The notes beneath the pieces are model-generated. The model was not told where the DNA came from. It ran no database searches and saw only the letters and a program-made list of their open reading frames with translations. Of a stretch of 64,000 bases of DNA, positions 13,298-13,473 are shown piece by piece. Position numbers and translations under genes: made by a program. Each line of letters begins with the position of its first letter. Position 1 is the stretch's first letter. The stretch spans positions 10,759,383 through 10,823,382 of the forward strand of contig NC_084670.1 in assembly GCF_028389875.1 (NCBI RefSeq). Direction: 5' to 3'. Source of the DNA: Rhea pennata. Lineage: Eukaryota; Chordata; Aves; Rheiformes; Rheidae.

Positions 13298-13473
13298 ACT
13301 GGATCTTCGGTCCCAGCCCAGACGACAACAGCAACAAGAGCGACGTTAACTGCATCAGCAACAGCGTCAACGAGATGAGCGAGATGCCCGAGGTGCCGCG
13401 GCGCCGGGACCACCAGCCCCAGGACGTGGTCATCGCCATCGGCGAGACCTGCCACCTGCCGCGGCAGACGTGA
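13298..13473 (+). CDS. 3'-terminal coding exon of an unrecognised gene
   Basis: A strong acceptor (CTTTTTCCTCTCCTTCCAG) precedes an exon that enters in phase 1 and encodes about 58 residues before TGA at 13471-13473. The peptide opens with [10 protein letters not shown], continues through NSNKSDVNC and [14 protein letters not shown], and ends [17 protein letters not shown]. It is hydrophilic, with no membrane segment, and would suit the cytoplasmic tail of a membrane protein; that is only a guess. Codon third positions are strongly C/G biased (AGC, GAC, AAC, GTC, ATC), as in real coding sequence, and unlike the competing frames. A poly(A) signal follows 145 bp after the stop. I do not recognise the family. 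No upstream exon was found in the window, so the preceding intron may exceed 13 kb. Confidence 0.72.

Follow-up and report, generated by a model that had tools for sequence, protein, structure and literature searches.

An exon next to LURAP1 in the genome of Rhea pennata raises the question of which gene ends there and whether this gene occupies the place of RAD54L. The window, i.e. the entire stretch of 64,000 nucleotides analysed (C8:10759383-10823382; positions given without a contig refer to it), was studied together with the whole genome (1.27 Gb, 180 contigs). The exon (13298-13473, plus strand) forms the 3' end of a real gene, apparently intact, whose predicted product is a small membrane protein. 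With a probability of about 0.9, this gene between RAD54L and LURAP1 is considered an intact paralog of SMIM44, predicted to encode a single-pass membrane protein of 188 residues.

Gene structure

The gene as read here comprises two coding exons separated by a long intron:
C8:10756500-10757500: CpG-rich stretch, roughly 1 kb ahead of the first coding exon
C8:10758312-10758702 (window -1070 to -680), plus strand: first coding exon, 391 bases, with the ATG start and the predicted transmembrane helix
1..13297, plus strand: part of the intron inside the window; the intron starts at C8:10758703 and totals 13,977 bases
13298..13473, plus strand: last coding exon, with a codon-completing AC, 57 codons (WIFGP...PRQT) and TGA at 13471-13473
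13618..13623, plus strand: AATAAA, probable poly(A) signal judged by the motif, 145 bases past the end of the stop codon

The frame of the last exon is open from 13300 for 57 codons up to the stop at 13471-13473. Its acceptor (TTTTTCCTCTCCTTCCAG) was scored with a hand-typed splice matrix and is matched by 3 of the 5203 AGs in the window, its own AG counted. GC contents at codon positions 1, 2 and 3 are 0.58, 0.42 and 0.95, respectively; a difference between third and second position of at least 0.49 occurs in 7 of 9851 sampled open 57-codon frames, a sample of overlapping frames with one reading phase per strand, in which the exon itself may be among the 7. The AATAAA at 13618 is the sole AATAAA or ATTAAA in 13474-16000. 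The strong acceptor, biased frame of about 58 residues, stop codon and nearby AATAAA described in the sequence-only reading were thus all found as stated.

A simple exon finder, applied to 213 kb leftward, returned C8:10758366-10758702 as the top plus-strand exon (score 24.2). Its donor boundary, G|GTGAGT, has the phase demanded by the exon at 13298, and 28 of the 12058 plus-strand GTs in 264 kb reach its donor score. Upstream opening of the frame leads to the ATG at 10758312, the first one past an in-frame stop; a candidate acceptor at 10758366, inside the exon, makes an alternative N-terminus possible. Spliced in phase, the two exons yield an intact protein of 188 amino acids. The proposal that a real gene ends here is borne out by the in-phase upstream exon, the intact joined frame and a paralog with matching intron position and phase (see below); the exon-finder partner and the paralog carry more weight than the acceptor and GC statistics. 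The intron harbours long T-rich and A-rich runs at 6201-6264 and 2652-2684, respectively.

Predicted protein

An N-terminal part of about 97 residues leads to the helix (about 99-121), which is followed by a conserved juxtamembrane stretch; some 50 residues of tail complete the 188. A single strongly hydrophobic stretch peaks at about residues 99-121, and all Kyte-Doolittle windows (19 residues) above 1.2 lie inside residues 91-130, from which a single transmembrane helix is predicted. Four N-X-S/T sequons are located ahead of the helix and one behind it; the cluster suggests an N-outside topology. The helix-flanking charges, +1 before and -2 after in this copy and in its paralog alike, suggest an N-inside topology.

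The 57-residue tail alone has no usable match in Pfam or PDB. Two matches of the tail were rejected, namely the designed repeat protein SAKe6AR in PDB (3.1e-7, a score added up from six repeats with 4.0-4.2 bits apiece) and L6tr (E 2.3). With the full protein, Pfam returned just two matches far under the cut-off (DUF2061, E 0.085; YmzC, E 0.65) and PDB nine, every one at E 0.71 or worse. SNF2/RAD54 sequence was sought in the tail and the full protein, with no match in Pfam or PDB. Of the earlier statement that the tail matches no known family, one half therefore stands, as no Pfam family covers the gene, and the other does not, as a paralog exists at the position of SMIM44 on another contig.

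A paralog on a second contig

Searched against its own genome, the 188-residue protein matched, apart from its own two exons, a single further place, C27:4451409-4451612 (E 1.2e-17; residues 65-132, 57% identical). The copy on contig C27 was read as follows:
C27:4451358-4451607 and C27:4451911-4452134: two exons, read as a protein of 157 residues, with an intron of 303 bases

Its intron falls at phase 1 in the aspartate codon that flanks the membrane, exactly where the intron on C8 falls, and the exon that follows carries a DWxFGPxP motif, as does the exon at 13298. The core of the two proteins scores 248 (BLOSUM62, ungapped), whereas none of 10,000 segment-wise shuffles exceeded 32; membrane composition alone therefore cannot account for the match. 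Tails and far N-termini of the copies yielded no useful alignment. A search for a further family member, made with the C27 protein, gave four matches: its own two exons, the C8 exon and a place on C22 (E 8.4, not significant). Clear copies in the genome thus number two, match counts being lower bounds.

Assignment to SMIM44

SMIM44 is small integral membrane protein 44, located at 19p13.3 in human. The copy on C27 is flanked by HEAT_PBS exons (Pfam, 4.1e-14) on one side and a MAP17 gene (Pfam, 2.9e-16) on the other, read as DOHH and SMIM24, respectively. The published human coordinates give the order SMIM24 (chr19:3,473,986-3,480,525), SMIM44 (3,482,110-3,483,441) and DOHH (3,490,824-3,500,674; PMC13268603). 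Since the flanks agree with this order, the C27 gene is assigned to SMIM44 by its position.

The two rhea copies share one predicted helix, two coding exons as read here, the phase-1 intron and the core LYxxYKPPxxDxIxLPxxVLYLxMAA... They differ in length (188 residues on C8 vs 157 on C27) and in intron size (13,977 vs 303 bases). The N-terminal part of the C8 copy is longer and contains four sequons, whereas the C27 counterpart has none; the latter ends with SRKKRFL, and its tail is not usefully alignable with that of the C8 copy. SMIM24 and PDZK1IP1 (MAP17, PF15807) are likewise small single-pass proteins, encoded on C8 and C27 with one gene beside the SMIM44 copy, but form a separate protein family: the Pfam MAP17 domain was sought in the C8 and C27 SMIM44-like proteins without a match.

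SMIM44 itself is barely studied, and the C8 gene is, as judged from its sequence, an unrecognised new member of its kind. The authors of PMC13268603 report that they retrieved no literature on SMIM44. In literature on RAD54L/LURAP1 in chicken and on SMIM24/LURAP1, the SMIM44-like gene was absent among the matches listed. TMEM275, at first suspected to be the gene, was dropped because the literature gave nothing that tied it in. With the C8 gene, a membrane-protein family without a Pfam match would gain its second member, and the pair offers a comparison, two copies vs one, for probing the role of SMIM44.

Occurrence in mammals

It is plausible that the gene is absent or unannotated in mammals at the RAD54L-LURAP1 place. 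C3H1orf190 of cattle is taken here to be LURAP1. A dog gene list reads LRRC41, RAD54L, LURAP1, POMGNT1 and TSPAN1, no locus being listed between RAD54L and LURAP1 in the part available (PMC12684936), and a cattle list, likewise available in part, reads LRRC41, RAD54L, POMGNT1, C3H1orf190 and TSPAN1, with nothing named between RAD54L and POMGNT1 (PMC4472243). The same cattle list gives unnamed LOC genes elsewhere (PMC4472243, in part). Such lists can omit loci and are weak evidence for mammalian absence. The genes given in PMC11987802 are unordered and say nothing on this point.

The balance tips slightly towards a scenario in which non-mammals have retained, ever since the early vertebrate duplications, a second SMIM44-type gene in the RAD54L-LURAP1 interval that mammals lost, leaving them SMIM44 only; the pair would then represent an undescribed membrane-protein family whose helix and juxtamembrane motif are nearly invariant. 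If the mammalian loss is true, this would be one more gene conserved among vertebrates that annotation centred on human has missed. That the gene is instead present at the mammalian place, unannotated or otherwise named, appears rather unlikely: small genes are frequently overlooked and the present comparison drew on mammalian gene lists, but the available parts of the dog and cattle lists (PMC12684936, PMC4472243) have no entry between RAD54L and the next gene. Such an overlooked gene would be compatible with the assignment as SMIM44 paralog and bears on the mammalian loss only.

Selection on the two copies

Selection at the protein level is shown between the C8 and C27 copies by the pattern of their differences. 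Of 76 aligned residues 45 are identical, 26 of these 45 with the same codon. Codon mismatches at positions 1, 2 and 3 amount to 21, 17 and 43, i.e. 43 of 81 fall on the third position (excess, p 2e-4), and the Nei-Gojobori estimates over the 76 codons are 0.32 for dN and 1.54 for dS. Read off-frame by one or two bases, 29 of 75 and 28 of 75 residues agree, respectively, and stops arise. An excess of synonymous change in the frame, which had been named as the test of a real gene, is accordingly present, measured against a paralog instead of another species.

These values also bear on whether the SMIM44-like gene might be a decaying pseudogene derived from the C27 gene. The genome yielded just two clear copies, a lower bound, and their tails can barely be aligned, which would agree with decay; yet both exons are open with strong splice sites retained, dN/dS is about 0.2, and the presence of the intron shows that the gene is not a retrocopy, so that decay is very improbable. 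A dS of about 1.5 marks the split between the copies as old.

Residues in common amount to 18 of 23 in the helix, 12 of 17 just after it and 15 of 35 just before it. As the helix and juxtamembrane stretch are most alike between the copies, selection appears strongest in or at the membrane, and the core serves as an indicator of which residues were held. Tentatively, the likeliest role of both copies would be that of small accessory subunits that bind a larger membrane protein. They would act mainly through the helix and juxtamembrane stretch, the part most strongly in common, and the diverged tails and N-termini would set partner or location, copy by copy. This accessory-subunit mechanism is a conjecture drawn from the sequence pattern, possible but on balance doubtful.

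Origin by duplication

The MAP17 family has at least two genome matches, C8:10214017 and C27:4454919, the latter beside the SMIM44 copy; counts from this search are lower bounds, and two bacterial control genomes stayed below the cut-off. The genes of this family are presumably those named PDZK1IP1 and SMIM24. The matches provide a second gene pair that joins the two contigs, and the SMIM44-like and MAP17 pairs probably share the same duplication history. The most likely origin would be one ancient block (whole-genome) duplication that gave rise to both, a reading based on one further gene pair. In cattle, PDZK1IP1 is listed in the interval adjoining FAAH-LRRC41-RAD54L (PMC4472243).

The LURAP family has two matches, on C8 and C61, and is therefore paired C8/C61 and not C8/C27; genome searches with the C8 and C27 proteins reported no SMIM44-like match on C61. 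The second LURAP match (C61:19534658-19534921), probably LURAP1L, contains one in-frame TAG, which may reflect an intron edge or a broken copy.

Gene order around the locus

From left to right, C8 carries amidase exons (plus and minus strands), exons taken to be NSUN4 (minus) and LRRC41 (plus), RAD54L (minus) and, about 70 kb further on, the SMIM44-like gene (plus), LURAP1 (minus), a POMGNT1-like gene (plus) and a tetraspanin (minus):
C8:10669793-10686792, minus strand: RAD54L exons, about 70 kb left of the SMIM44-like gene
23755..24492, minus strand: LURAP1 last-exon open frame (Pfam LURAP, 1.9e-46; PF14854 at C8:10783584-10783847), convergent with the SMIM44-like gene
38680..42444, plus strand: POMGNT1-like exons, six of them used as query (Pfam GNT-I, 8.6e-22)
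54406..56743, minus strand: tetraspanin exons (Pfam Tetraspanin, 8.1e-16)

Five of eight neighbour-exon queries matched Pfam; the last exon of RAD54L and the LRRC41 and NSUN4 pieces did not. One RAD54L exon matches Pfam SNF2 (2.1e-14), and the last RAD54L exon, without a Pfam family, gave 7.5e-26 against PDB 1z3i ('similar to RAD54-like'). The exons left of the SMIM44-like gene were taken to be NSUN4 (minus) and LRRC41 (plus), tentative names, as neither has a family match. Likewise tentative are the names of the GNT-I exons, assumed to be POMGNT1, and of the tetraspanin, by position presumably TSPAN1.

RAD54L was at first suspected to be missing, and the SMIM44-like gene had been proposed to take its place; the RAD54L exons were located further left, on the strand of LURAP1, and were invisible in the window because they lie outside it. 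That the two genes are on one strand fits what the sequence-only reading stated for human. With RAD54L about 70 kb to the left and exons taken to be LRRC41 beyond, the order agrees with the human one save for the extra gene. The opposed orientation noted earlier holds, the plus-strand SMIM44-like gene converging on minus-strand LURAP1. A rearrangement edge, at which LURAP1's neighbour came from elsewhere and RAD54L moved off, would accommodate this orientation and the gap of about 70 kb, but the amidase, NSUN4, LRRC41, RAD54L, LURAP1, GNT-I and tetraspanin exons all stand in the expected order, including those checked left of the window, and MAP17 has a match on C8 too, so that this suggestion, a very improbable one, is not needed. 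A RAD54L match in a parapinopsin paper concerns RAD54L2, another locus.

The amidase (FAAH-like) exons form a cluster on both strands at C8:10596669-10646075, apparently of several gene copies; one joined exon pair tested matched Pfam Amidase at 3.1e-36. In the interval from the SMIM44-like gene to LURAP1, the stretch at 18618-19617 is CpG-rich (GC 0.71-0.74, CpG o/e 0.79-0.86) and is possibly a regulatory element or a promoter from which a non-coding transcript starts. A GC-rich minus-strand frame that the exon finder placed there, at 18516-19028, was taken as spurious.
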